This document shows, one piece after another, positions 11,723 through 32,115 of a stretch of DNA of 33,149 bases. The stretch's first letter is position 1. Each line of letters opens with the position of its first letter. The DNA comes from a virus, in the IMG/VR virus record IMGVR_UViG_3300032331_002725, positions 1 through 33,149 of that record; one strand, given 5' to 3'. A program made the translations under genes and the position numbers. The notes beneath the pieces are model-generated. The model was not told the DNA's origin. It saw only the letters and a list, made by a program, of their open reading frames with translations, and ran no database searches.

Positions 11723-11747
11723 AAGGCGCCTATTTTTTAGGCGCCTT
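11723..11747 (-). terminator. Hairpin at the end of the chaperone extension frame
   Basis: AAGGCGCC and GGCGCCTT form an 8-bp GC-rich stem. Inner TA/TA pairs can extend it, leaving a loop of about 5 bases. On the coding strand the stem is followed by TAATATTTA, a weak U tract. The stop codon of the frameshift extension (11732-11730) lies inside the hairpin. That supports the idea that the extension is the true end of this gene. Confidence 0.6.
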
Positions 11748-12002
11748 AGAGGTATATGTCGGTTGTTTTGGAGCTATATTAGGTCGTGATATACCCTGTT
11801 TACCTTTATTATTCATCATGTTTTGCTGCTTTTCTGATTCTTCGCGTTCTTTATCATAGAATTCTTTAATTTTTTCAAATGTAAATCTACGAAGCCAAAT
11901 AGGCATACTGTATACTGTATCCCAATCATATCCACCCTTACCATGAAATACTATTTCATGTATTTGAGAAAATAAATATAATCTATATTCCAGCGTCAGG
12001 CC
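11730..12002 (-). CDS. Tail assembly chaperone extension reached by +1 (or -2) frameshift
   Basis: This frame is offset by +1 from the 252-residue gene upstream and opens at its 3' end. From the glycine codon at 12002-12000 it runs 90 codons to a TAG at 11732-11730. It reads GLTLEYRLYLFSQIHEIVF, then HGKGGYDWDTVYSMPIWLRR, a Lys/Glu-rich helix, and a basic Pro/Lys tail. The amphipathic, Trp- and Tyr-rich composition looks like real protein. It has no ATG before residue 33 of the extension, so independent initiation would lose the best-looking part. The switch point is a run of seven T on the coding strand (12009-12003): LNFF is shared, then Trp-Pro-Asp-Ala-Gly-Ile-stop in frame 0 versus the extension in the shifted frame. 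The fused product would be about 336 residues. An assembly indel in the homopolymer is the main alternative. Confidence 0.72.
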   Translation of the reverse strand, partial: GLTLEYRLYLFSQIHEIVFHGKGGYDWDTVYSMPIWLRRFTFEKIKEFYDKEREESEKQQNMMNNKGKQGISRPNIAPKQPTYTSKAPKK

Positions 12003-12741
12003 AAAAAAAGTTAAGAGAAATAGGTACAGTTATACCCTCCCCTGTATAATCTTCATCTTCAGGCTTGTATACTATATTAATATCTGGGGATACTTTACTA
12101 TAATATTCACGTAATGCTCTTGCATCTTTTGCAATAAGATAATTATCAACAAAATCACGAATTTCTTTTTGATCACGTTTACCTTCAACTGAAGTAATAG
12201 TGTGTTTTAAGCGAGTTGTAATGTCAGAAGATGAATTTGGATTAATCTTTTTTAAACCTTTAATTTCAGCATCTATTTTTTGTTCATCACCGTGTGTTAA
12301 TAATTTAAATGTAATGTTATTACTAGAGTGAGGTAAAGTAAATGAAAATTCATTTGAACCACGTTTAAATAATTTTTCATCTACTACTTTATCTTCTAAA
12401 GTAGATAAATCAACTGTTGCTTCAACTTCTTGTCCATTTGAATTAGTATACTTAAAAGAATAATCTTTACCATAACCTAATACACGAGCCGCTACTAATA
12501 TTGCATTTTTATCCCCAACTAATAGTTCATTGTAATCAATTGGTGTAATAATTAATGCTTGAAGTAGCTTATCAATTACGGTGCCATTTTTAATATAATT
12601 AGCATTAGTAAGAATATCTTCTTCCTTAGCTGTCATATATTTCATTTCAATTTCACCTTTAGCAAGTGGTGATGTTTCGGGATACAGTAAGCCTTTTGAA
12701 GGTAATGTAACTTGTTCGGTTGGGATTTTTAATTCTGCCAT
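11983..12741 (-). CDS. T4 baseplate-family (gp26/gp51-like) protein, probable tail assembly chaperone, short form
   Basis: The 252-residue product begins MAELKIPTEQVTLPSKGLLY. It continues MKYMTAKEEDILTNANYIKN, then LLQALIITPIDYNELLVGDK and AILVAARVLGYGKDY. This LPSKG...MTAKEEDIL...GDKNAIL...ARVLGYG pattern is, from memory, that of the T4 baseplate family (Pfam T4_baseplate; gp26/gp51 relatives). Members are annotated as baseplate hub or assembly proteins. The gene sits directly between the tail tube and tape measure genes, the location of tail assembly chaperones in most tailed phages. It ends NFFWPDAGI just after a T7 run. A 90-codon frame offset by +1 continues from there, so I propose a short form and a frameshifted long form. 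A late motif lies 22 bases upstream of the start. Confidence 0.75.
   Translation of the reverse strand: MAELKIPTEQVTLPSKGLLYPETSPLAKGEIEMKYMTAKEEDILTNANYIKNGTVIDKLLQALIITPIDYNELLVGDKNAILVAARVLGYGKDYSFKYTNSNGQEVEATVDLSTLEDKVVDEKLFKRGSNEFSFTLPHSSNNITFKLLTHGDEQKIDAEIKGLKKINPNSSSDITTRLKHTITSVEGKRDQKEIRDFVDNYLIAKDARALREYYSKVSPDINIVYKPEDEDYTGEGITVPISLNFFWPDAGI
12003..12009 (-). promoter_or_regulatory. Candidate programmed frameshift site (T7 run)
   Basis: In frame 0 the coding strand reads AAC TTT TTT TGG CCT. A tRNA-Phe on the second TTT can re-pair perfectly one base forward (+1, next codon GGC) or two bases back (-2, adding one Phe before GGC). Either move leads into the 90-codon extension. A -1 move gives TTG GCC TGA and stops at once. 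The next frame 0 codon is Trp TGG, a potentially slow codon. Confidence 0.6.
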
Positions 12742-12829: not shown

Positions 12830-13318
12830 TTAGAAGTTCAATACGCAATAATCCATAGCAATTGTTAATGATAAATTAATTGCTGCGTCTCCTGAAGCCC
12901 AATCATAATCACCAAAAGTTGCAGTTTTGCAATAAGCACCTTTGATAATCCACTCACCTACTACATCACCTACAGGACCTAAAATATCTAATGTTAAATC
13001 TTTTTTATAAAAATCTGAGTAACCGTCACGGCCTGTTACTGATTCGTGTGCTAAACGAGCCCACTCCATTACTGCTTGTGCGCCAGATGGGGTTACCGGA
13101 TCGTATAGTTCTAATGTCATATCATTCCATTTAATTTTACCTTTTACTTTACGGTAAACGTTGATATGATCTAATGTAATTTCACCAGCATCAAATCCAG
13201 GAGCTGAAGCCTTTTTAATTAAGTATGATGGAATACCATCAATATACATGATAAAGCGATTTGGAACTTTGGGTTCAAATGCCGTAAACATTATTTCGTT
13301 AGCGTCTAATACTGCCAT
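12830..13318 (-). CDS. 19: Tail tube protein (gp19-like)
   Basis: The 162-residue product matches the size of T4 gp19 (163 residues) and its overall plan. It begins MAVLDANEIMFTAFEPKVPN, then RFIMYIDGIPSYLIKKASAP, a beta-rich centre with KIKWNDMTLELYDPVTPSGA, and the C-terminal YCKTATFGDYDWASGDAA before LSLTIAMDYCVLNF. The features 'P-N-R-F-x-M-x-I-D-G-I', 'V-M-E-W' and 'L-x-Y-D-x-I-T/P' are typical of myovirus tube subunits, which stack as hexamers inside the sheath. It is next to the sheath gene, as in T4. It is transcribed from its own late motif and closed by a strong terminator, consistent with very high expression. Confidence 0.93.
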   Translation of the reverse strand: MAVLDANEIMFTAFEPKVPNRFIMYIDGIPSYLIKKASAPGFDAGEITLDHINVYRKVKGKIKWNDMTLELYDPVTPSGAQAVMEWARLAHESVTGRDGYSDFYKKDLTLDILGPVGDVVGEWIIKGAYCKTATFGDYDWASGDAAINLSLTIAMDYCVLNF

Positions 13319-13357: not shown

Positions 13358-13383
13358 CTACACTCCCTATGCAGGGAATGTAG
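13358..13383 (-). terminator. Hairpin spanning the sheath stop codon
   Basis: On the coding strand CTACATTCCC pairs with GGGAGTGTAG (one G-T pair) around TGCATA. The sheath TAG stop lies at the edge of the loop. No strong T tract follows, so it may be a weak terminator or an mRNA 3'-end stabiliser. The same arrangement, a hairpin at the stop codon then a late motif, is seen before the tape measure gene. Confidence 0.5.
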
Positions 13384-15472
13384 CGCCGGTTGGTAATACG
13401 TTAAAGTTCAGAATGATAAATTCAGCTGTTTTAGTTGGTTGGATATAAATCTGACCTACTAACTGATTTCTATCGATTACATCAGGTGTATTATTTGAAT
13501 CATCCATTACTACTTTGTAAGCATACAAACCTTGACGTTGTACTACTGATTCAAGATATGGATTAACTTGAGATAAGAATCTATTACGTGTTACGTTGGT
13601 ATTTTGTTCAAATACTAGGTTATTACCTACTTGACCAATATATCCTTTAAGAGCAATTAATAAACGACGAACGTTTACTCTGTCAAGAGCAGTTGCTTTA
13701 CGTTGTAATGTTTTCTGGCCAAATACTACAACACCTTCACCAGGGAATGTAGCTAATGGATTAACATTTGCAGCATATAATGTATCACGATCAGATTGAG
13801 ATAATCTTTTTTCAGCTCTTAATACTGAAGGAACACCACCACGATTTAAACCTGCAGGAGCAAACCATTCAGCACCAACTTGATCATTGAATGCAAATAC
13901 ACCACCCATTATTGTTGATGGAGGACACCATAAAGCTTTACCTACATTGCTTGAATACAATTGAACCCAAGGATAATAAGTAGCAGCGTAGTTACTTGAT
14001 TGACCAGCTGCATTTTGAGCGGCAGTAGTAATTGAAGTTCCATAAACTCCAGCACCTATAACTGCAATTGCATCACCACGACCTTCAACTGTTGAAATAA
14101 AGGTTGAAGCAGCACTACAATCTAAACCAACACCAGGGGCTGTTAATACATTAAATTGATATTCATCTCTATTATCAAGAAGATTAAATGCTATAAGATA
14201 ATCAGCAGGAGCAAATCCTTGAATATTAGTTGCTGTTATATTTTCATTCATTAATTGAGCAGCATTGGTTGCCGGTACACCACCACTAAATGAACCATTT
14301 GAAGATACTAAGTTAGTTGTTGGTAAACCAGAAGCATAAGATCCAGTCTTAAAGTTTCCGTTGTTATCAAGAGAATCTACTTGTGGATTTATAGATTTAA
14401 TACGAACATATTGAGAAGCATTAGCATATGATCCTGTATAATCAACATAGTAATTATTATCAGCATCAATTCTAAATACTGGTTTCCAATCACCTATTAC
14501 ACGAGCGGCATAGTTTGGAAGATTTGGATCTAATGAAAGATTAGGCCAAGATTCAATATAGTTCTTTTGAGAGTTATTATCATTACCAGCACGAACAGTT
14601 AGATTAAATGTACCACTACCTGTGTTTACATTTGTAACTTCCCAACGAACGTTTGCTGTACTACCACTTGGTAAAGCACCATTAGCAAAGGAACCAGATA
14701 CAGCACCCCCACTATTATTCATTACATCACCCCAAGTTAGTGTTTCAAGAGTAAAAGCAGCAGAAGCGTTTTTAGCACCACCTAGTGTTTTAACATCAAG
14801 AATCTGTATACTTCCACTAAATTTAAATCCATTACCTACTATTTCATTATCATCATACACAGTTGCTTGTAAAGACATACTTGTTGTAGCAACTACAGAA
14901 GCTGTAATATTAAATTTAGAGGTTAATGAGTTAATTTTTGTTACTACATTACTAACAGTATCAGCAACTGTAGATCCAGTAACTATATAGTAGTTAACAG
15001 CAGTATCTACTTGAGATGTACTAGAAGTTATAAAGAAGAAACCATAAGAAGCAGAGGTTGTAAAATCTGCAGATCCCGTTAAAGTAAAAGCAGCATTATC
15101 TTTTGAAGCACTAATATTAACACTTGCAGTTGCGGCTATTCCTGAAAGGTCATAAATTGTAGATTGAGCGTATGTACTAACATTAGCAGATCCACTGATA
15201 ATTCTAGTAACTAATAATGTCTGGCCACCATTTTGAAAGTAATCTTTAGCAGCTAAAGATGTAAGATATTCATAATAATAACTACCACTTTTAAAAGTTT
15301 CGCCAAATTTAGCTACAAATTCGCTATATGACGTAACATAAGTAGGAATAAATGGTTGACCTAATACTGTAGGTCCAACGATTGCTGTGGATGTCCCTTG
15401 AATACCCCTTTGAACTAACGATCTGTCAGATTCATTTTGGAATACACCGGGAGATAAAATTTTTTCTGCCAT
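13367..15472 (-). CDS. 18: Contractile tail sheath protein (gp18-like)
   Basis: The 701-residue product begins MAEKILSPGVFQNESDRSLV, then TAIVGPTVLGQPFIPTYVTS and YFQNGGQTLLVTRI, the hallmark N-terminus of myovirus sheath proteins. The conserved C-terminal domain is clear: NPLATFPGEGVVVFGQKTLQ, then DRVNVRRLLIALKGYI, FEQNTNVTRNRFLSQVNPYL, and a terminal IYIQPTKTAEFIILNFNVLP. Between about residues 100 and 330 there is a Ser/Thr/Ala/Asn-rich beta region that probably forms the outer protease-resistant domains. T4 gp18 is 659 residues. The protein polymerises around the tube and contracts to drive injection. It is followed by the tube gene, as in T4. Its leader is long (43 bases from late motif to ATG). 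Confidence 0.95.
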   Translation of the reverse strand: MAEKILSPGVFQNESDRSLVQRGIQGTSTAIVGPTVLGQPFIPTYVTSYSEFVAKFGETFKSGSYYYEYLTSLAAKDYFQNGGQTLLVTRIISGSANVSTYAQSTIYDLSGIAATASVNISASKDNAAFTLTGSADFTTSASYGFFFITSSTSQVDTAVNYYIVTGSTVADTVSNVVTKINSLTSKFNITASVVATTSMSLQATVYDDNEIVGNGFKFSGSIQILDVKTLGGAKNASAAFTLETLTWGDVMNNSGGAVSGSFANGALPSGSTANVRWEVTNVNTGSGTFNLTVRAGNDNNSQKNYIESWPNLSLDPNLPNYAARVIGDWKPVFRIDADNNYYVDYTGSYANASQYVRIKSINPQVDSLDNNGNFKTGSYASGLPTTNLVSSNGSFSGGVPATNAAQLMNENITATNIQGFAPADYLIAFNLLDNRDEYQFNVLTAPGVGLDCSAASTFISTVEGRGDAIAVIGAGVYGTSITTAAQNAAGQSSNYAATYYPWVQLYSSNVGKALWCPPSTIMGGVFAFNDQVGAEWFAPAGLNRGGVPSVLRAEKRLSQSDRDTLYAANVNPLATFPGEGVVVFGQKTLQRKATALDRVNVRRLLIALKGYIGQVGNNLVFEQNTNVTRNRFLSQVNPYLESVVQRQGLYAYKVVMDDSNNTPDVIDRNQLVGQIYIQPTKTAEFIILNFNVLPTGATFPA

Positions 15473-18083: not shown

Positions 18084-18779
18084 TTATAAGCCGAAGCGTG
18101 ATTTTTGTGCGTTGTAGTTTTGAGTAATTTCTGTATCTGATAAAACACGATTATATACTTGTGCTGTTGCATTATACCCACTTGTAAAAAGAGTAGTACT
18201 TACACTTCCTATCCACCACCCGTTTGTTGATGTTCTTAAACTTGTACCTGTTGTTGTTGTTGTTCCATCAAGAATTCCATTTACATAGCATTTAATTGAT
18301 GCACCTGCAGTCCAAATACCAGTAATATGATACCATGTATTAAGTGCTAATGTGATTGTACCTGTTGTTCCTAATCCAACAGTTGATGGCACTGTAGGTA
18401 CAGCTCCAGCTTGAGCAATTCCAGCAGTAGTTATATTTAATTGTAAGCTCCACCCAGACCCTGCTCCGTCTCTACCTCTACCTAAAATATATTTTGTTTC
18501 AGAATAATTATCATTATTAAACCAAATGGAAAAAGTATAATTATCTGCTGCCGAACCTGAATAAGGTGTAGATATCCAGTCATTAGTTCCATCAGTAAAA
18601 ATACTTCCGCCATTAGCAGAATTAAACGTAGGCCCGTTAGTTAATGTTCCTATAATATTATTTCCACTTAAATCTCTCCAAGTAGTTCCACTACCAGGAT
18701 AAGAATTTTTATCAGCAGCATCTAACGATAATACTAATCCATTTGTTACTATTTGTCCAAAAGCGTATTGTGTTGCCAT
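18084..18779 (-). CDS. LamG/concanavalin A-like lectin-domain protein, 231 aa (paralogue B)
   Basis: The 231-residue product is one LamG-type (Laminin_G_3) domain. Its start region is TNGLVLSLDAADKNSYPGSG then TTWRDLSGNN. The middle has NDWISTPYSG..DNYTFSIWF, NTWYHITGIWTAGASIKCYV and NGILDGTTTT. The end is YNRVLSDTEITQNYNAQKS followed by RFGL. This layout is common in phage tail fibre and adhesin genes, where it probably binds surface glycans. It has no signal peptide, consistent with a virion or fibre-attached part. It is 9 bases from the paralogue upstream and ends with the same residues. No late motif precedes it, so it is co-transcribed with its neighbour. Confidence 0.85.
   Translation of the reverse strand: MATQYAFGQIVTNGLVLSLDAADKNSYPGSGTTWRDLSGNNIIGTLTNGPTFNSANGGSIFTDGTNDWISTPYSGSAADNYTFSIWFNNDNYSETKYILGRGRDGAGSGWSLQLNITTAGIAQAGAVPTVPSTVGLGTTGTITLALNTWYHITGIWTAGASIKCYVNGILDGTTTTTGTSLRTSTNGWWIGSVSTTLFTSGYNATAQVYNRVLSDTEITQNYNAQKSRFGL
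18086..18113. repeat. Direct repeat copy 1 (3' end of LamG gene B)
   Basis: A 28-base stretch at the 3' end of LamG gene B is identical to 18791-18818 at the 3' end of LamG gene A. It encodes the shared C-terminal residues including Gln-Lys-Ser-Arg-Phe-Gly-Leu. It marks the duplication and could support homologous exchange. Confidence 0.85.
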
Positions 18780-18788
18780 ATATTATAA

Positions 18789-19487
18789 CTATAAGCCGAA
18801 GCGTGATTTTTGTGCGTTATAGTTTTGTGATATTTCATTTGCTGAGAGGGCTCTGTTGTAAACAAGCAAATTTGCTATTCTTCCAGTAAAAAAATAATTG
18901 ACTGCCGTTCTTATAACTCCTATTTTCATGGTAGTTGTATCTGATATTTGTTCAACTATAGTCGCGTTAGTTATTGTTGAATTAAAATTTCCATTTAAAT
19001 AAAAAGAAGCTGATTTTCCACTATAATTATAAGAAATAGCTATATGTTGCCAAATATTATTAGTTATTGATGTACCTGTGTCTGTTAAGTCTTTATTAGG
19101 GTGTACCCAAAAATTCATTTTATTTGCTGAAGTTATCCAAAATCCCCAACCTCCATAAGGACTAGTATTATCATAATCTTTATCTATAATTCCACCAACA
19201 ACTGCAGGAGTTGCTGTTTGAAATATCCAAGCACTTACTGATTTGTCTTGTAATTCTATTCCTAATGTGTTGTTTCCTAAATTAACATATTGTGTAGTAC
19301 CATTTAATACTATACTACCTCCATTTGAACCGTTAAATGTAGGAGAAGCAACTAAGGAGCCACTAACTGCAGATCCACCTAAATCAGTCCAAAGAGTTCC
19401 ACTACCTGGATAAGAATTCTTATCAGCAGCATCTAATGATAATACTAATCCATTTCTAATAATACTAGGTCCATCAAAAAATCCCAT
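18789..19487 (-). CDS. LamG/concanavalin A-like lectin-domain protein, 232 aa (paralogue A)
   Basis: This 232-residue LamG-type domain protein begins MGFFDGPSIIRNGLVLSLDA, then ADKNSYPGSGTLWTDLGGSA. The middle strands are TTQYVNLGNNTLGIELQD, VSAWIFQTATPAVVGGIIDK and NNIWQHIAISYNYSGKSASF. The end is VYNRALSANEISQNYNAQKS then RFGL. It shares both ends with the 231-residue protein downstream while the middle differs. That suggests a tandem duplication followed by divergence of the ligand-binding face. It lies 3 bases from the 66-residue gene upstream. A role in host glycan recognition is inferred. Confidence 0.85.
   Translation of the reverse strand: MGFFDGPSIIRNGLVLSLDAADKNSYPGSGTLWTDLGGSAVSGSLVASPTFNGSNGGSIVLNGTTQYVNLGNNTLGIELQDKSVSAWIFQTATPAVVGGIIDKDYDNTSPYGGWGFWITSANKMNFWVHPNKDLTDTGTSITNNIWQHIAISYNYSGKSASFYLNGNFNSTITNATIVEQISDTTTMKIGVIRTAVNYFFTGRIANLLVYNRALSANEISQNYNAQKSRFGL
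18791..18818. repeat. Direct repeat copy 2 (3' end of LamG gene A)
   Basis: This is the partner of 18086-18113, with identical 28-base sequence and a spacing of 705 bases. The 5' ends of both genes are also nearly identical around AATACTAATCCATTT on the plus strand. Confidence 0.85.
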
Positions 19488-19694: not shown

Positions 19695-20390
19695 TTAGTT
19701 TTTATTTTTACAATTATTAAAGTGCCATCTTGTCATACTACTAGGTGTACCAATAGTATTACAATGGGGACATATTATTTTAGGCATATTTAATGCTGCT
19801 TCTCGCATTTTTTGTTTTGTTTCTTCTTTATGTTGTTTTCCAAATAAAGGATGTTTTTCTCCTTTTTTAGAGTCACTTATTTTTTTTCTTTGTTCTTCTG
19901 TGTGTTTGCATCCTAAATAATTTGGTTTTCTACCTTTTAAACCTTCACTTATTTTTCGTTTTGTTTCTTTGGATTTGGGTTTACCTTTATTAAGAAATCC
20001 AAAGTTTTTATTATTTTGTTTTTGCTCTTCAGACATTTTTCTACCTTTAGACCATGTGTTTAATCCTTTATGGGATTTACTCATTTTTCTTTTTGTTTCT
20101 TCACTAGCTTTAAGACCTAATCTTCCATCACCTCCTTTAGTTAAATTAACTAATGTACCTTCATTAAATGCTTTACGACCGTATTGTTTAATTAATTCCT
20201 GTTCTATTTTACATGCTTCTTCCCAAGATATATCTTCATAAAGTACTTCTATTTTTAAACCATACTTATTAACAGCATATTTCCATATTGGAGATCTTCT
20301 ATCTGTAGTATATGCTCGTTTTTTATGTCTACCTATTCCAATGTAAAATACAGTTCCGTTTTCGTGTAAATGTTTATATACTACTGCCAT
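19695..20390 (-). CDS. GIY-YIG homing endonuclease with NUMOD3 repeats and C-terminal zinc finger
   Basis: The GIY-YIG nuclease domain is in residues 1-90: VYKHLHENGTVFYIGIG carries the Y...YIG signature. Arg 21/Arg 25 follow as catalytic candidates. EEACKIEQELIKQYG supplies the conserved Glu region, and TLVNLTKGGDG is the typical end motif. NUMOD3-type DNA-binding repeats follow: ASEETKRKMSKSHKG, KSKETKRKISEGLKGRK, TEEQRKKISDSKKG and HKEETKQKMREA. The C-terminus has a C2HC-like finger (CPHCNTIGTPSSMTRWHFNN then C). It is free-standing between two structural genes, as T4-like homing endonucleases commonly are, and appears intact. The late motif is only 3 bases upstream of the ATG, so a transcript from it would be nearly leaderless. 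Confidence 0.92.
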   Translation of the reverse strand: MAVVYKHLHENGTVFYIGIGRHKKRAYTTDRRSPIWKYAVNKYGLKIEVLYEDISWEEACKIEQELIKQYGRKAFNEGTLVNLTKGGDGRLGLKASEETKRKMSKSHKGLNTWSKGRKMSEEQKQNNKNFGFLNKGKPKSKETKRKISEGLKGRKPNYLGCKHTEEQRKKISDSKKGEKHPLFGKQHKEETKQKMREAALNMPKIICPHCNTIGTPSSMTRWHFNNCKNKN

Positions 20391-20441: not shown

Positions 20442-23400
20442 TCAAAGATAAGTTGCTGTTGCTTTTATATTCCATCCTGCTGTAGAAGAAGGAACAGTAA
20501 AATTGAATTGTGCTTGACCTGTTACTATTGCTACAGATGCAGTTACTGCTGATGTTGATCCTATATCTATAGTTGAAAAATCAGTATATTGAACTGAACC
20601 GCTAATCCAGGAAGCAATCACTTGTCCTGATCTTGCATTTGAACCACTATACAAGTTATAGTTATAAAATGCAGAATTAAAGGAACCTGTATTAGTAGTA
20701 AACACATTTGCTGTTGAAGGACTTGTTGATGATAAAACAACAGCATAATATATTTGAGTACCACCTATACTAAAACCTACTGTTGAAGTGGCATTTCCAT
20801 ATGATGATGTTAAAGAGTTAAATGCAAATGATGATGTAGTTACATAAGATGCACTTAATATATAAGATGATGTTTGGGCATTTGATGCACTTAAAGCATA
20901 TGAAGATGAAAGAACACTTCCTAGTAAAAAGGATGCTGTTTGGGCATTTGATGCACTTAAAGCATATGATGCTGAAACAGCATTAAGAATATAAGATGCT
21001 GTATTTGCTTGTAAAGCACGAGATGATGATGTAGCATTGTCTGCATTTGATGCACTAAAAGCATAGGAAGCAGTTGTAGCAAACGAAGCTGAAGTTACAG
21101 TTCCGGGTGCTGTTGTTAATATATTACCAGAAGAATCAACTGCTAGGTTAGCAGCTACTGTTCCTGTAAATGCTCCTGAGCCAGTATAGTTAGGAATTTG
21201 AATAGCTCCATTTGCAAGGTCTATTTGAAGTTTAAATGCATCACTACCAGCATTAGTTCCTCTTAATACTCTAAATTTATTTTGATAATTATCAAGCATT
21301 GAAGCTGAAGTGTATAGGCCTCCACTTGCTTGTAATAGTATTTGTCCTCCTTCACCTGTACCACCTGCAGGAGATGGACCTAAAACTAATGTGTTTTCAG
21401 CAGATCCTAATGATGAAGTACCTACTGTTAATGCATTTATTATTATTACACTTTGGTTAAGTGGATTTACATATGAAGATGTTGCAGAATATGAAGCGCT
21501 TAAGGCATATGATGAACTAACTGCATTTAGTATGTAGGAAGAAGTTATAGAATTAGATGCACTTAAAGCATATGATGATGAGATAGCATTGAGAATATAA
21601 GATGCTGTAATAGAATTAGATGCACTTAAAGCATATGAAGCACTAATTACATTTTGAGCCCAAGAAGCCGTTCCTTGTAATGAACCTGTAAATCCAAAAA
21701 GAGTAGAAGAAACTGAACCGGTTACATTTACACTTCCTGAGGCTGCTATAGCTACACTAGTTCCATTTACTGTTATTCCTGTTCCTAAGGCATTTGGGTT
21801 ACTAACAACAAAAGCAGATCCTGCTCTATCAGCGGTTCTTGTTAAAGAAAAGTTACCATCTATACTAGTGTTTGTAAGGAGAGCACCTCCTAATCTAATA
21901 GTATTACTTCCTACATCAGAAATACCATTATTAAAGGTATATGTAATTGTAGGAGCATAAGATGCACTTAAAGCATATGATGCACTAATTGCATTTAAAA
22001 TATAAGATGATGTAATAGCGTTTGAAGAACTTAAAGCATAAGACGAACTAGCAGCATTTAAAACGTAAGATGATGTAACTGCATTTGATGCTGTTAAGTT
22101 ATTTACTACACTTCCACTAACTGTTATACTTCCTGATACTGATAGGCTACCTGTAAAAATATGAGTATTAGTTATAATACTACCAAAACGACTAGAACCA
22201 GATACATAATCAGTAGATGATGTTATAGTTTGAACTATAATTGTTTGTGCTGTTAATGTTCCTCTAACAGTAAAGTTATCTGCTGTTGAAGCAGTAACAG
22301 CATTGGTTGCATTAGTAGACCAAGAAGCAGTATTAACATTTGTTGCCCAAGAGGAAGTTAAAGCATTATTTGCCCAAGATGCAGTATTAACATTTGTTGC
22401 CCAAGATGCTGTCATTGCATTAACAGCATTATTTGACCAAGATGCTGTAGATATAAAAGATGCAGTTTGAGCATTTGATGCACTAAGTGCATATGATGCA
22501 CTAATAGCGTTTAAAACATAAGATGCAGTTTGAGCATTTGATGCACTAAGTGCATATGATGCACTAATAGCGTTTAAAACATAAGAGGATGTTACCGCAT
22601 TTTGAGACCAACTTGATGTTCCAAAAAACGAACCACTAAAAGCAGAAGCAGATATAGTTCCGGTTGAATTTAAAGAACCAGTAATACTATAATTACCAGT
22701 TAATGATTTTGAATTAACCCATAGAGCTCCATTATAAACTAATAAATCTCCAGACGTTCTACTAGCAATGGATACATCTGCAAGTCCAGCTAATGTACTG
22801 GCTATAGGAGCGGTACCTGATGACCCTATTCCTCCTACATTTCTAAATAATCCAGCTTGAATAATAGCGGCTTCACTAGCGTTTAATAAGTCACGCGCTG
22901 GGGTTCCTGTTCCTCCACCTTGAATAATAATATACCCTAATAATATTCCGTTTTGAGCAGTATTAGGAGCTTCTAAAAAAGTTTCAGTATCAATACCATT
23001 TTTTGCATCTACTAAATTACCGTATCTAGCATTACCATAATAAACAATAAAGGCATTTGTTGGTGAATTTGGAATCCAAAAAACTCTTTGAATACTAAAA
23101 AAACCCGCACCTACTGCAGTTAAAGTTCCTGTTGTTGTGTCAACATATTGTTTACTATCAATTGCTGTATATCCAGCATTTGCAATACCAGTGTCAATTA
23201 TAGGAGTAGATCCAGAAATATAATAACGATAAATTTTAGATATATTAATATCAGGATCAGATGTTAATGATGGATGATTTGGATTATTAACATAGTTAGA
23301 TCCATTATTGTAAGCAGTACCGCTTGATTTTTTAATACTTAATGTTGGTGAACTACCACTAGCTTGTAATGTATGGCCTGATATTTTTAATGGTCCAAAA

Positions 23401-24572
23401 GCTCTTAAAAAGTCATCTGTTCTTTGAGCATACCCATATGCTAATTGAGGAGCGTTATAAACACCAGTAGATACGCTACCTGATAAGTGTAGTACAACTC
23501 CTAATTCAATTTGAGTATCCCATTGGTTAGTGTCTGTACTACCAATTGGAACTGTTTGTTGATTAATAGAACCATTTGAAGTTAAACTAATATAAGTAAT
23601 TTTAGCTGAACCTGAATAAATTATAGGTTGGTTAGTAAAATTACCCCATTTGAGATATTGTATTGTTGGGAAAGGATCTGTACTGCCTGTTGATGCATTT
23701 AAACTTACTATAATACCACTACCTGAGGATAAATTAAATGTAGTTGATCCTGGAGTTGAACTTAATACTCCACCAGATAATATACCTGTATATAAATTTC
23801 CTTCTAACCAACGTAAACGAGTTGTATTAGTATATCCTGAGCCATTTTGGGAAAAGTATAGATCATTTGTAGATCCACTTACATAAATGTAAGAAGCTGA
23901 TATTGAATTATCTATACTTGTTGATATAGGATCAAAACGAGTATATCCATTAACTTGAGTATCACCATATATTCTAACTGTAGGGTTGATAGTACCTAAA
24001 GAGCCGGATATTATAATACTGCCAGATAAAGTTGTGTTACCATATAAATTATTATTTCCTATCTGTGTAGTAGATCCTGTTATTAATAAGCTACCAGTTA
24101 ATGTAGTGCTTCCTATTAATGTGTTTGATCCACTAGTAAATAAACTACCAGTTACTGTTTGGTTTCCTTTAAAAATATTTGAACCTGTAGTTGCAAATAC
24201 AGCAGAACCAGTACCACTTAATAAAATAGAGTTAGCCGCTAAAGATGCACTTAAAGCATATGATGCACTTAAGGCATATGATGCACTAATAACATTTAAA
24301 ACATAAGATGCTGTTGTAGCGTAGCTAGAAGATCCAAATAATGAACCTGTAATACTACCACTAACATTTACAGAACCGGTAACAGTTAAACTACCTGTTA
24401 TAATAGCAGAACCAGTATAAGGAAAAGATGAAGCATTAGCTACATATGATGCAGTTATAGCATTTAAAGCCCAAGATGCAGTCCCATACAGAGAACCTGT
24501 AATTCCATCAGTTACTGTTAATGTTCCACTAACAAAAAATGAACTTGTTGCTATGCCACTATCTATTATCAT
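20442..24572 (-). CDS. Very large repeat-rich tail fibre protein, 1376 aa
   Basis: The 1376-residue product begins MIIDSGIATSSFFVSGTLTV and alternates three kinds of sequence. First, 'ITGSLxVTGS' beta repeats. Second, long runs of a hexapeptide close to Y-A-L-S-A-S, with linkers such as SYVLNAISASYALSASN. Third, a unique central region near residues 200-580 (SGHTLQASGSSPTLSIKKSS to LNASEAAIIQAGLFRNVGGI) that looks like a folded domain. The cassette TAQTIIVQTITSSTDYVSGS is shared with the 468-residue fibre. The last 110 residues (FSIGGTQIYYAVVLSSTSPS to STAGWNIKATATYL) are a probable C-terminal head. The repeats imply a long trimeric shaft. Its ATG is 13 bases after the 981-residue gene, with no late motif between, so the two form a unit. 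Host receptor binding is inferred. Confidence 0.82.
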   Translation of the reverse strand: MIIDSGIATSSFFVSGTLTVTDGITGSLYGTASWALNAITASYVANASSFPYTGSAIITGSLTVTGSVNVSGSITGSLFGSSSYATTASYVLNVISASYALSASYALSASLAANSILLSGTGSAVFATTGSNIFKGNQTVTGSLFTSGSNTLIGSTTLTGSLLITGSTTQIGNNNLYGNTTLSGSIIISGSLGTINPTVRIYGDTQVNGYTRFDPISTSIDNSISASYIYVSGSTNDLYFSQNGSGYTNTTRLRWLEGNLYTGILSGGVLSSTPGSTTFNLSSGSGIIVSLNASTGSTDPFPTIQYLKWGNFTNQPIIYSGSAKITYISLTSNGSINQQTVPIGSTDTNQWDTQIELGVVLHLSGSVSTGVYNAPQLAYGYAQRTDDFLRAFGPLKISGHTLQASGSSPTLSIKKSSGTAYNNGSNYVNNPNHPSLTSDPDINISKIYRYYISGSTPIIDTGIANAGYTAIDSKQYVDTTTGTLTAVGAGFFSIQRVFWIPNSPTNAFIVYYGNARYGNLVDAKNGIDTETFLEAPNTAQNGILLGYIIIQGGGTGTPARDLLNASEAAIIQAGLFRNVGGIGSSGTAPIASTLAGLADVSIASRTSGDLLVYNGALWVNSKSLTGNYSITGSLNSTGTISASAFSGSFFGTSSWSQNAVTSSYVLNAISASYALSASNAQTASYVLNAISASYALSASNAQTASFISTASWSNNAVNAMTASWATNVNTASWANNALTSSWATNVNTASWSTNATNAVTASTADNFTVRGTLTAQTIIVQTITSSTDYVSGSSRFGSIITNTHIFTGSLSVSGSITVSGSVVNNLTASNAVTSSYVLNAASSSYALSSSNAITSSYILNAISASYALSASYAPTITYTFNNGISDVGSNTIRLGGALLTNTSIDGNFSLTRTADRAGSAFVVSNPNALGTGITVNGTSVAIAASGSVNVTGSVSSTLFGFTGSLQGTASWAQNVISASYALSASNSITASYILNAISSSYALSASNSITSSYILNAVSSSYALSASYSATSSYVNPLNQSVIIINALTVGTSSLGSAENTLVLGPSPAGGTGEGGQILLQASGGLYTSASMLDNYQNKFRVLRGTNAGSDAFKLQIDLANGAIQIPNYTGSGAFTGTVAANLAVDSSGNILTTAPGTVTSASFATTASYAFSASNADNATSSSRALQANTASYILNAVSASYALSASNAQTASFLLGSVLSSSYALSASNAQTSSYILSASYVTTSSFAFNSLTSSYGNATSTVGFSIGGTQIYYAVVLSSTSPSTANVFTTNTGSFNSAFYNYNLYSGSNARSGQVIASWISGSVQYTDFSTIDIGSTSAVTASVAIVTGQAQFNFTVPSSTAGWNIKATATYL
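22458..22583. repeat. Perfect tandem 63-base duplication in fibre gene
   Basis: Two adjacent identical copies (22458-22520 and 22521-22583) encode a 21-residue unit equivalent to QTASYVLNAISASYALSASNA. Perfect identity implies a recent slippage or recombination event. Adding or removing copies would lengthen or shorten the fibre shaft in frame. Confidence 0.92.
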
Positions 24573-24585
24573 CTATTTGTACATA

Positions 24586-27531
24586 TTAAAAGGTAGGGTA
24601 ATTTAATGAACTCTCTCCAAGTATACTATTTCCACTATCTATAGTTGTAAATCTAAGTAATGAGGTTGTACTTCCTGATAGATATGGATTATTGCCTCCA
24701 GGCCAGTATACATTACTATCCCATGTCAGGCTATTTTCATCTGTTGTTTTTACTAAATGAGTTGATTCATATGCTTGATTTGTAGGAATATTAGCAAAAG
24801 TAGGAATTAAAGAAAATGCTTGACTTCCTGTTATAGAAGTAAAAGCTAAACTTATTCCTCTATTTCGACCAGTAGTATAAGTTCCTCCAAAAATACCCGG
24901 ATCTATTGCCCCTGAAGTATAAGAATTAGCTGTAGCTACCATTACTGCCCTATAAATACTACCAACAGGAGATCTAAAAGAACCAGAAGCTACTAAAGTA
25001 AATCCTGAAACTGTTGAAATATCGGTTACATCTTCTTGAACAAATCCTATAACGACTCCAAAATTATTATAAGAAGGAGTAATAATAGGAGGAGGATTGG
25101 GAGGAGATGAATTAACAGAAGAAGCAGATACTACATAAGAAGTAACAGCAGGTGGGTATGGTGATGATATAGTAGCTGTATTAACGTTTCTAAGCAATAA
25201 TGAAAATCCTACGCTAATATCACTAGTAGTTGTTGTTCCAAAATTTACTACAGGATCACTTGGTGGTGTACTTCCCGTTTGTATTAAATAAAATAATGAA
25301 AATGCAGTATCATTAAGATTAGGAACATTAATTAATGAAGAAGTAATAACTGTCCATCCAGTAGAAGCAGTGACAGCATTATTAGTAGTTGTTGCTCCTA
25401 TTAAGTAAAGATCGCCTTTTTGACTTCCAGAGGGTAATGGAAAAGCTAAGGAACTACTATTTACAAAATTAAATACAGAAGCACTAACAAGACTTCCAGT
25501 GTAGTTAAGACTTTTAGTTACATATGAAGATGTATAGGTAAAAAAAGTATCAATTGAACAGTCTATTGTTAATCTTCCTTGCGTTGTATAATAGTCATTG
25601 CTTGAAGAAATTAAATATGGTGAATTATATATTTGAGGAATTATAGAAGGTTCATCAGTTAAATATTGACCATATATTTTATTTCCTCCATCTATAGTTA
25701 ATAATTTATATGTAGAAGTTTTTCCTGGGGTTACAGTTGGGTTAATAACGCCATCAGGCCAAATTACATTATATGAATTGAGTGAGCTTGTCCATAAAGC
25801 ACTATTTGTTGCTTCTACTTTTACCAAATGAGTCATTTCATATGACTGATTTGTAGGAAAATTAGTAAAAGCAACAGTTTTAGGAAGAGATATACTTCCA
25901 GACAATGAAGAAAAAGCTACAGTTACTGATACCCAAGATCCAGAAGCTGATGTACCTCGTTGTTGAAATTTTCCAGGATTTACTATAGTTGATCCTGTTA
26001 CTTTTGAAGCAGCCATAGCTGCCATAACAGCATTTGTTGCAGTTCCAACACTGCCTGATGCTCTTAAAAAATAGCCTCCACTACTTCCTGTTGGTTCAGA
26101 AATATTACTTACAATTGAATTTATATAACCCAAACCAACTACTAAGCTATTAGCAGCTGAAGAAGTAATAGCTGTAAAGTTGGGCATACCGTTATTTGCA
26201 CCTGCTGAACCGGTTGTAAATGTAAAAGAGGAAGTATTGGCATTTCTAATTAATAATGCAAAAGCAACAGTTTGAGTTGATACATTTGTTAGTATAGGAT
26301 TAGCAGGAACTATACTACTTGTTTGTACTAAGTATATTGTTCTAGCGTTAGTATTACCACTAATTGTACTATCTATACTTGTCCATCCTGAAGGGAGATC
26401 AGGTGTTCCTGATGCTGTTGTACGAGTTGCTATTCCAACTAGATAAATATCTCCATTTACACCTCCAGAAGGTAAAGTAAGAGGAGTTCCAGAGACATAT
26501 GCAGTAGAAGAAGTTATTGAAGCTGAATAAAAACTTGATGAGAAATAATAGCTTTGAGAATTATATGAAGCCGTCCATGCAAAAACAGTAGTAGTAGAAC
26601 AATCTACTAAAAGTCTATTTTCATATAATGTATTATAAAAAGTATTAATTATACTTGAAGATACAAAGCTTGAAGTTAATAATGATGGGATAACGGGTGC
26701 TAAATAAGATGCACTTAAAGCATAAGATGCACTTAAAGCATAAGATGAACTAATATTAGTAACTCCTTGTACTACTAAAGTAGCATAACCAACAGCAGGA
26801 TAAGAAAATGTTACTACTGTTTGATTTAATGTTATTGATTGAATATTTTTAGGAATTATTACAAATCCATTTCCATCATATATAGTAACTGCAGGATATA
26901 GATTATTTAAATTATGATTGATAGTCCATGTTGTAGATGGAGTAGATTGAGTATAAGTATAAGATGCCCCTTGTGTATTTAAAGCATATGATGCTGTTAA
27001 AGAATATGAACTAGAAAGGGAATTTATAGCATATGATGAAGTATCAGTGTAAGATGAACTAACAGTATAAGATGAACTTAAGGCATATGATGCACTTAAG
27101 GCATATGATGAACTAATAGCATAAGATGAACTAATAGCATAAGATGAATAAGAAGCAGTTACTGCTCTTTGTGCCCATGAAGCTGTTCCTACTGTTGATG
27201 ATATATAATCAGTTCCGGCTGTGGCTGCGGATATAGCAGTTCCATCACCCTTAATAAGGCCAGAAACTGTTGTTTTAATTGTAATTATAGGAGTTAGTGA
27301 AGAACTAAGTACTGTTCCTGCAAATCCATTTGCTGTTGCTACAGATACATTTGTTACACTACCACTTCCAGCACCACCACCTCCACCTGCACTTGCTGTT
27401 GAATAATAAAATTTACCTCCTTCGTCTGCTACTATATATCTAGTTAAGGAAGAGCTTTCCTCAAGTACTACTTGTAAAGCAGCAAAATCGGCATGTCCGC
27501 CTTGTCTAGGTATATTTATGGTAGTTCCCAT
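24586..27531 (-). CDS. Large tail fibre/adhesin with duplicated C-terminal module, 981 aa
   Basis: The N-terminus (MGTTINIPRQGGHADFAALQ then RYIVADEGGKFYYSTASAGG) is a likely attachment region ending in a Gly linker. About 100 residues of hexapeptide repeats follow (SYAISSSYALSASYALSSSY). Two homologous modules of about 320 residues then occur, near 309-625 and 655-981. They share 'L-x-x-D-C-S-x-x-T-x-F', 'P-S-G-x-x-x-G-D-x-Y-L', 'N-Q-x-Y-E-x-T-H-L-V-K' and 'T-I-D-x-G-N-x-I'. Each module has one Cys. The gene follows the gp15-like gene and starts the host-recognition block from its own late motif. The order fits a baseplate-proximal or fibre-tip adhesin. The exact virion position is unknown. 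Confidence 0.8.
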   Translation of the reverse strand: MGTTINIPRQGGHADFAALQVVLEESSSLTRYIVADEGGKFYYSTASAGGGGGAGSGSVTNVSVATANGFAGTVLSSSLTPIITIKTTVSGLIKGDGTAISAATAGTDYISSTVGTASWAQRAVTASYSSYAISSSYAISSSYALSASYALSSSYTVSSSYTDTSSYAINSLSSSYSLTASYALNTQGASYTYTQSTPSTTWTINHNLNNLYPAVTIYDGNGFVIIPKNIQSITLNQTVVTFSYPAVGYATLVVQGVTNISSSYALSASYALSASYLAPVIPSLLTSSFVSSSIINTFYNTLYENRLLVDCSTTTVFAWTASYNSQSYYFSSSFYSASITSSTAYVSGTPLTLPSGGVNGDIYLVGIATRTTASGTPDLPSGWTSIDSTISGNTNARTIYLVQTSSIVPANPILTNVSTQTVAFALLIRNANTSSFTFTTGSAGANNGMPNFTAITSSAANSLVVGLGYINSIVSNISEPTGSSGGYFLRASGSVGTATNAVMAAMAASKVTGSTIVNPGKFQQRGTSASGSWVSVTVAFSSLSGSISLPKTVAFTNFPTNQSYEMTHLVKVEATNSALWTSSLNSYNVIWPDGVINPTVTPGKTSTYKLLTIDGGNKIYGQYLTDEPSIIPQIYNSPYLISSSNDYYTTQGRLTIDCSIDTFFTYTSSYVTKSLNYTGSLVSASVFNFVNSSSLAFPLPSGSQKGDLYLIGATTTNNAVTASTGWTVITSSLINVPNLNDTAFSLFYLIQTGSTPPSDPVVNFGTTTTSDISVGFSLLLRNVNTATISSPYPPAVTSYVVSASSVNSSPPNPPPIITPSYNNFGVVIGFVQEDVTDISTVSGFTLVASGSFRSPVGSIYRAVMVATANSYTSGAIDPGIFGGTYTTGRNRGISLAFTSITGSQAFSLIPTFANIPTNQAYESTHLVKTTDENSLTWDSNVYWPGGNNPYLSGSTTSLLRFTTIDSGNSILGESSLNYPTF
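26708..26743. repeat. Tandem 18-base repeat, two copies
   Basis: GATGCACTTAAAGCATAA is present twice in direct tandem. It encodes the hexapeptide Y-A-L-S-A-S on the minus strand. Near-identical 18-mers recur in all three fibre genes, for example around 24244-24290, 21960-21980, 20890-20960 and 27071-27150. Confidence 0.85.
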
Positions 27532-31446: not shown

Positions 31447-32115
31447 TTATTTTCCATATTCATACTCAAGTATTCTGCCTACTAAATCAGAGCGGTGATT
31501 CTCTTTCAATTTAATCCACTTAATTTCATCTATTTTTTTGGATAGTTCAATAGCATAACTTAAGCCGTTTATTTCACCCGTTGACGTTTTAATATCGGTC
31601 TGTTCGTTGTCACCATTGATAACAATTTTACCAGTTTTTCCTAAACGTGTCAATATGGCTAGCATTTCACCTTTAGTTAGGTTTTGTGCTTCCTCAACAA
31701 TCAAAATATCATCAATAGTTTTACCTCTGATAAACTGAACGGGCATTGCTTTAATTTTGCCTTCAGAAATTAAATCTGGAACTTCGTGTTTATTGGAGCA
31801 GCATTTATTAAGGTTTTCAACAAGTGCTTCCATATATGGATCAAATTTACCATTAATGTCTCCAGGGAGAAATCCTAAACTTTTACCAACTTCAATTGCT
31901 GCTCTTGTATTGTAAATACATTCTATTTGTTTTTTCTTTAAAAAATCTAATGCTGCTTGAGCACATACTAATGATTTACCACTACCTGCTCTACCTGTAA
32001 CTATTACTATTTGATTTTCTACTATTAATCGTTTTGCTTCTTTTTGTTCTTCATTTAATTGTAATGCATTAACTGCTTTAATTTCATTTTTACGCACGCG
32101 ATTAGGTTCCTTCAT
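31447..32115 (-). CDS. phoH: PhoH-like P-loop ATPase
   Basis: The 222-residue protein consists of a PhoH domain. Walker A is VTGRAGSGKS (Lys 45 region). IECIYNTRAAIEVGKSLGFL with PGD matches the 'T-R-P-x-x-x-x-G-E-x-L-G-F-L-P-G' segment. Walker B is DDILIVEEAQNLT, and the sensor region is KIVINGDNEQTDIK. PhoH proteins are widespread in T4-like and other phages; an RNA helicase- or nuclease-related function has been proposed, but the role in infection is not settled. The gene lies between the HNH endonuclease and the neck operon. Its late motif overlaps the stop codon of the HNH gene. It looks intact. Confidence 0.93.
   Translation of the reverse strand: MKEPNRVRKNEIKAVNALQLNEEQKEAKRLIVENQIVIVTGRAGSGKSLVCAQAALDFLKKKQIECIYNTRAAIEVGKSLGFLPGDINGKFDPYMEALVENLNKCCSNKHEVPDLISEGKIKAMPVQFIRGKTIDDILIVEEAQNLTKGEMLAILTRLGKTGKIVINGDNEQTDIKTSTGEINGLSYAIELSKKIDEIKWIKLKENHRSDLVGRILEYEYGK

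Follow-up and report, generated by a model that had tools for sequence, protein, structure and literature searches.

A probable programmed +1 frameshift at a conserved UUU_Y codon in a putative tail assembly chaperone gene of the T4 baseplate family

Introduction

Can a tail assembly chaperone gene of the T4 baseplate family be lengthened by a programmed frameshift? Frameshifted tail assembly chaperones, including gpG/gpGT of lambda, have been reviewed in general, and T4 was named there as an exception to the conserved tail chaperone frameshift (Atkins et al., 2016; PMC5009743), T4-like phages having two separate genes, one for a short protein and one for a longer fusion (PMC10274946). The question is raised by a 33,149-nt viral sequence (positions 1 to 33,149 of IMG/VR record IMGVR_UViG_3300032331_002725; hereafter the window), for which an earlier note had proposed, from the letters alone, that a +1 or −2 frameshift produces a long chaperone just before the tape measure gene. 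Comparative tests of frame offset, slip codon and selection support a programmed frameshift giving a long form, and we put at roughly 0.9 the probability that a +1 slip lets the locus specify a tail assembly chaperone in a short and a long form.

The locus and its overlapping frame

On the minus strand, the sheath and tube genes are followed by a 252-aa PF12322 gene, an overlapping extension and the tape measure gene (Table 1). This order, of which the earlier note had claimed the part from the tube onwards, is borne out by the phrog_4542 and phrog_23 matches and by the homology of the 1014-aa gene to the gene annotated as tape measure in Flavobacterium phage immuto (immuto_3-5A; 25% identity, E 6e-43); two overlapping ORFs lie between tube and tape measure, as in G/GT-type loci. 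At the gene end the coding strand reads ATT TCT CTT AAC TTT TTT TGG CCT GAC GCT GGA ATA TAG. As claimed, the 252-aa frame runs six residues (WPDAGI) past the T7 run before its stop and a 90-codon +1 frame continues. The +1 frame is open from 12029 to the stop at 11730-11732 (99 codons from stop to stop), and the 90 codons downstream of the slip read GLTLEYRLYLFSQIHEIVFHGKGGYDWDTVYSMPIWLRRFTFEKIKEF... The early ATG that the note had found lacking is indeed absent from it: this frame has neither ATG, GTG nor TTG from nine codons upstream of the slip to 20 codons downstream. A canonical −1 heptamer (X_XXY_YYZ) with a −1-frame extension was not found in the window, where the extension lies in +1. 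The extension stop falls inside a terminator-like hairpin, again as claimed (10-bp stem; one such hairpin found, 0.4 expected). The 65 nt around the extension stop fold below −9 kcal/mol in 209 of 243 +1 relatives, a count made without a shuffle control.

Table 1. Features of the tail assembly locus in the window.
Feature	Positions	Strand	Remarks
Sheath protein	13367..15472	−	phrog_23 E 6.7e-65; Pfam sheath domains
Tail tube protein	12830..13318	−	phrog_4542 E 3.7e-21
Putative tail assembly chaperone N-domain, short form, 252 aa	11983..12741	−	PF12322 T4_baseplate / phrog_150
Putative slip site, T7 run in AAC TTT TTT TGG	12003..12009	−	UUU_Y in 275/275 unique +1 relatives
Slip-site codons	AAC 12010-12012, TTT 12007-12009, TTT 12004-12006, TGG 12001-12003	−
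C-domain after +1 shift, 90 codons + stop	11730..12002	−	no early start codon; predicted fusion product 336 aa
Terminator-like hairpin over extension end, before tape measure gene	11723..11747	−	10-bp stem
Tape measure protein, 1014 aa	8651..11695	−	homology to phage immuto_3-5A tape measure

Other genes of the window, likewise on the minus strand, include two that encode very long proteins of 1376 and 981 aa (20442-27531), with repeats such as SASYALSASNA and ITGS, which are likely tail fibres. Three NUMOD3 motifs (Pfam E 7.5e-26) mark the gene at 19695-20390, within the tail fibre region, as a probable homing endonuclease; a Laminin G-like (Concanavalin A-like) domain is encoded at 18084-18779 (Pfam E 1.1e-17), with a similar gene adjoining at 18789-19487, and a PhoH-like protein at 31447-32115 (Pfam E 2.8e-50).

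Conservation of the offset and the slip codon

A scan of viral contigs yielded 80 close relatives of the PF12322 protein (73–94% identity) on separate metagenome contigs, and in all 80 the extension (63–96% identical) is again offset by +1, which makes the overlap more than a chance occurrence. Homologues of the translated +1 frame, for which the earlier note had suggested a search, exist and overlap PF12322 genes. In a wider set the extension is in the +1 frame in 256 of 259 loci; the wider scans together gave 347 loci with a detectable extension, and among the 285 that are sequence-unique it is in +1 in 275 and otherwise in 10. The note had also named reads with six or eight T, giving one continuous gene, as counter-evidence; none of the relatives has a repaired single frame.

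At the same codon pair, every one of the 275 +1 loci has UUU with U or C as its next base (UUU_Y), as does one of the 10 others (Fisher 3e-16 over the 285 unique loci); because the sequences are related, this P overstates the number of independent events, and the tree described below is the better guide. The commonest forms of the site are TTT TTT TGG (208 loci), TTT CTT TGG (37) and TTC TTT TGG (12), besides rarer ones, and the T run is broken in 55 of the 275 (TTT CTT, TTT CTA or TTC TTT) with the offset unchanged, while only six carry an X_XXY_YYZ heptamer. From the TTT and TTC usage of the individual loci, 33 of 256 would be expected to lack UUU_Y, and none does; this excess has a log10 P of −17 over the 256 loci and −4.8 over 96 dereplicated ones. 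The extension is under purifying selection as measured by pN/pS, which over its core is 0.24 when read in +1 but 0.85 and 1.9 when read in the two remaining frames.

The +1 layout is shared by isolated phages of Flavobacterium (immuto), Microcystis (Mel-JY01), Bacillus (SP-15), Listeria (LIS04) and Streptococcus (GXN1), and by LR756508, a 484-kb uncultured phage. Searches with the extension profile recover LIS04 at E 0.001 and GXN1 at E 0.007, and an alignment of the Firmicutes-phage extensions to the window family scores E 1.2e-6. Annotations deal with the extension variously: it is unannotated in LIS04 and GXN1, represented only by a fragment from an internal start in SP-15 and immuto, and given as a separate hypothetical gene in Mel-JY01. 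Rhodothermus phage RM378, with its TTT TTT TGG and an open frame in +1 but no match to the extension profile, is a tentative candidate that we do not count. Each of 17 genome or contig records (up to 490 kb; several may be incomplete) contains a single N-domain gene, with no further copy in fused form, as expected if a frameshift supplies the long form.

Competing explanations

That the extension is a separate small gene, whose translation re-initiates or uses a non-standard start close to where the first gene ends, is suggested by the separate small genes annotated in Mel-JY01, SP-15 and immuto, and by an ATG at the extension start in three loci (L180, L185 and LR756511). We consider it improbable, as 174 of 256 loci have no ATG between the upstream +1 stop and 20 codons past the slip, and the window and 95 others of the 256 have neither ATG, GTG nor TTG over that stretch; moreover, the extension is conserved as protein upstream of any internal ATG (GLTxEYR...), and the retention of UUU_Y beyond codon usage is not needed for re-initiation. 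The seven-T run of the window and most relatives could invite RNA polymerase slippage, yielding mRNAs with a base gained or lost, and the window taken singly would be compatible with an assembly indel or a decaying gene. The 55 loci with a broken run (including TTT CTA TGG) keep the same offset, which makes polymerase slippage and assembly error poor explanations; the former is very unlikely, and indel or decay, as a general explanation, can be given almost no credence when the offset recurs across many metagenomes, in 275 unique loci, and also in isolated phages whose genomes are finished, with the extension under purifying selection.

The direction of the shift is a subtler matter. On TTT TTT T, +1 and −2 (as in Mu) both give UUU pairing and lead to the same frame, and TTT CTT TGG permits a weak −2 pairing via G-U, although +1 re-pairs best there. 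A −2 shift on TTC TTT TGG would put tRNA-Phe on UCU, and TTT CTA TGG offers no −2 re-pairing at all; since these two forms re-pair only by +1 on UUU_Y, +1 is favoured and −2 has little to recommend it. A +1 slip at UUU_Y is the simplest common rule for all site variants, and of the earlier +1/−2 proposal it is the +1 half that is preferred.

A programmed +1 frameshift is thus by far the best reading of these comparisons, which demonstrate a conserved offset, a conserved slip codon, purifying selection and one gene copy per genome. We infer that the shift is ribosomal and of low efficiency and that both forms have chaperone roles. Most ribosomes would terminate after the 252-aa N-domain; in a minority, tRNA-Phe in the P site on UUU would slip +1 onto the next UUU (UUC in relatives), GGC would be read in the new frame, and a helical C-domain of roughly 90 residues would be added. 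If the parallel with lambda gpG/gpGT holds, coating of the tape measure protein would fall to the short form, and recruitment of tail tube subunits to the long one. Across 60 dereplicated loci, the 60 nt past the slip fold only slightly more stably than their shuffles (mean z −1.06), and the margin over control positions (0 to −0.9) is slim; no clear stimulatory RNA structure was found in these loci, and 219 of 256 have no Shine-Dalgarno-like word upstream of the slip.

Domain families and known systems

The 252-aa protein matches PF12322 (E 2.5e-7; 31 bits, above the curated cut-off of 24.5) and phrog_150 (E 5.5e-14), and 34 of 48 relatives match PF12322 at E up to 0.01. AlphaFold models of the N-domain (pLDDT 90.5) and of the extension (a helical hairpin plus a long helix, pLDDT 80.9) were made separately. 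The top PDB fold match of the N-domain is the HK97 tail assembly chaperone 2ob9, a weak one (E 0.67, probability 0.60), and a sequence search of the PDB with the fusion alignment found nothing. As the window extension singly gave only weak matches to PHROGs and Pfam (12.6 bits against DUF6760, PF20546, below the curated cut-off of 27), a family profile was used instead. DUF6760 is matched by nine of 49 relatives at E up to 0.1 (best 1.6e-5), and positions 70-119 of the 121 of phrog_634, the gp51 family, by four of 49 extension members (E no higher than 0.1, 0.008 at best); hhalign aligns the extension with the gp51 family at a probability of 20% (E 0.001), and the whole fusion profile with T4 gp51 at only 1% (E 0.047). 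All C-domain matches to tail assembly chaperones, DUF6760 and the gp51 family are weak; they are suggestive of homology between the extension and the C-terminus of T4 gp51, which probably carries the same C-domain. In view of this resemblance, the long chaperone for which T4 uses a second gene is probably what the frameshift supplies here. Gene position, the frameshift and the weak fold and family matches together point to a short and a long tail assembly chaperone. The earlier note's link between the T4 baseplate family and the general chaperone system is accordingly probable in a refined form: it would run through gp51 as the long form, gp51 itself probably carrying the C-domain.

Among known systems, T4 gp26/gp51 (PF12322) share the N-domain family, with two genes there and one gene plus a frameshift here. 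Vladimirov, Gautam and Davidson reportedly identified T4-like chaperone genes already in 2022. Lambda gpG/gpGT have the same order of tube, chaperone, overlapping extension and tape measure and the same extension without a start of its own, the short and long forms being predicted in the window family; in lambda and in most other systems the shift is −1 and takes place on a heptamer, whereas the window family would shift +1 on one UUU with U or C after it, and its N-domain is of the T4_baseplate family, unlike that of gpG/gpGT. A −1 frameshift (GTTTTT) has been described in tail chaperones of Vandenendeviridae and Andersonviridae (PMC12846349), at the same contractile-tail chaperone locus and with poly-T near the gene end, and differs in direction. 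The haloarchaeal myovirus HSTV-2 is reported as very likely having a +1 frameshift in its tail chaperone gene (PMC5009743, PMC8211752), a likeness in direction in an archaeal virus. The one-base P-site slip on CUU U or UUU Y has counterparts in prfB (RF2; CUU_UGA) and influenza PA-X (UUU_CGU), and the GXN1 site, UUC UUU CGU, has the same UUU_CGU core as PA-X. These genes are unrelated; the window family has no stop codon in the A site, unlike prfB, and mostly no Shine-Dalgarno-like stimulator.

Natural changes of mode

The exceptions to the +1 rule fall into a few groups. In ten loci (L126/L277 and L278 to L286; 57–67% identical to L126, some incomplete or duplicate) a canonical −1 heptamer, A_AAU_UUC, occupies the same place throughout (8/8 among sequence-unique loci), and the extension is in the −1 frame in the nine that the extension profile matches; L284, the remaining locus, lies on a contig that breaks off shortly past the gene and has no profile match and no frame assignment. 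L180 and L185 have their ATG just past the stop and lack UUU_Y. A start of its own in relatives, which the earlier note had named as evidence against a frameshift, is seen in these two and in LR756511, and is rare. In a tree of 80 sequences, built by a quick method and rooted on the Bacillus, Listeria and Streptococcus phages (themselves +1), the nine −1 rows form one clade and L180 and L185 another (99% each), both nested among +1 sequences. There are, on this tree, two changes of mode.

Other −1 cases occur further afield. Locus L368, from a deltaproteobacterial MAG, seemingly has its extension in the −1 frame, with the canonical heptamer absent, and in the Aeromonas phages phiAS5 and avDM12-TAAL, of the T4 family, a similar C-domain follows U_UUU_UUC in the −1 frame. 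As poly-T −1 signals in T4-like chaperone genes are cited in published work (PMC12846349), the arrangement in the Aeromonas phages may already be known. Agrobacterium phage Atu_ph07 (1944-2784) and Pseudomonas phage Cygsa01 (772-1682) have C-domain-like frames in −1 offset at the gene end; the former has both U_UUU_UUC and an overlapping ATGA, either of which may set its mode, and in the latter the following small gene bears the annotation of a putative baseplate hub assembly catalyst.

UUU_Y-directed +1 shifting is likely to have been the ancestral route to the long chaperone in a large T4-type branch of contractile-tailed phages of Bacteroidota, Cyanobacteria and Firmicutes, from which one lineage would have passed to −1 through a canonical heptamer and another to a start codon of its own, the frame being free to change while access to the C-domain was kept.

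Implications

In the published phage genomes examined, the annotation of the extension, which is missing, split off or internally started, can now be corrected. The putative +1 site is minimal, with no stop codon and no obvious stimulator, and its hundreds of natural variants form a test set for +1 slip efficiency. If our reading is true, the T4 chaperone family uses frameshifting in many phages and in both directions, and the two-gene arrangement of T4 would represent one among several ways of obtaining this pair of proteins.
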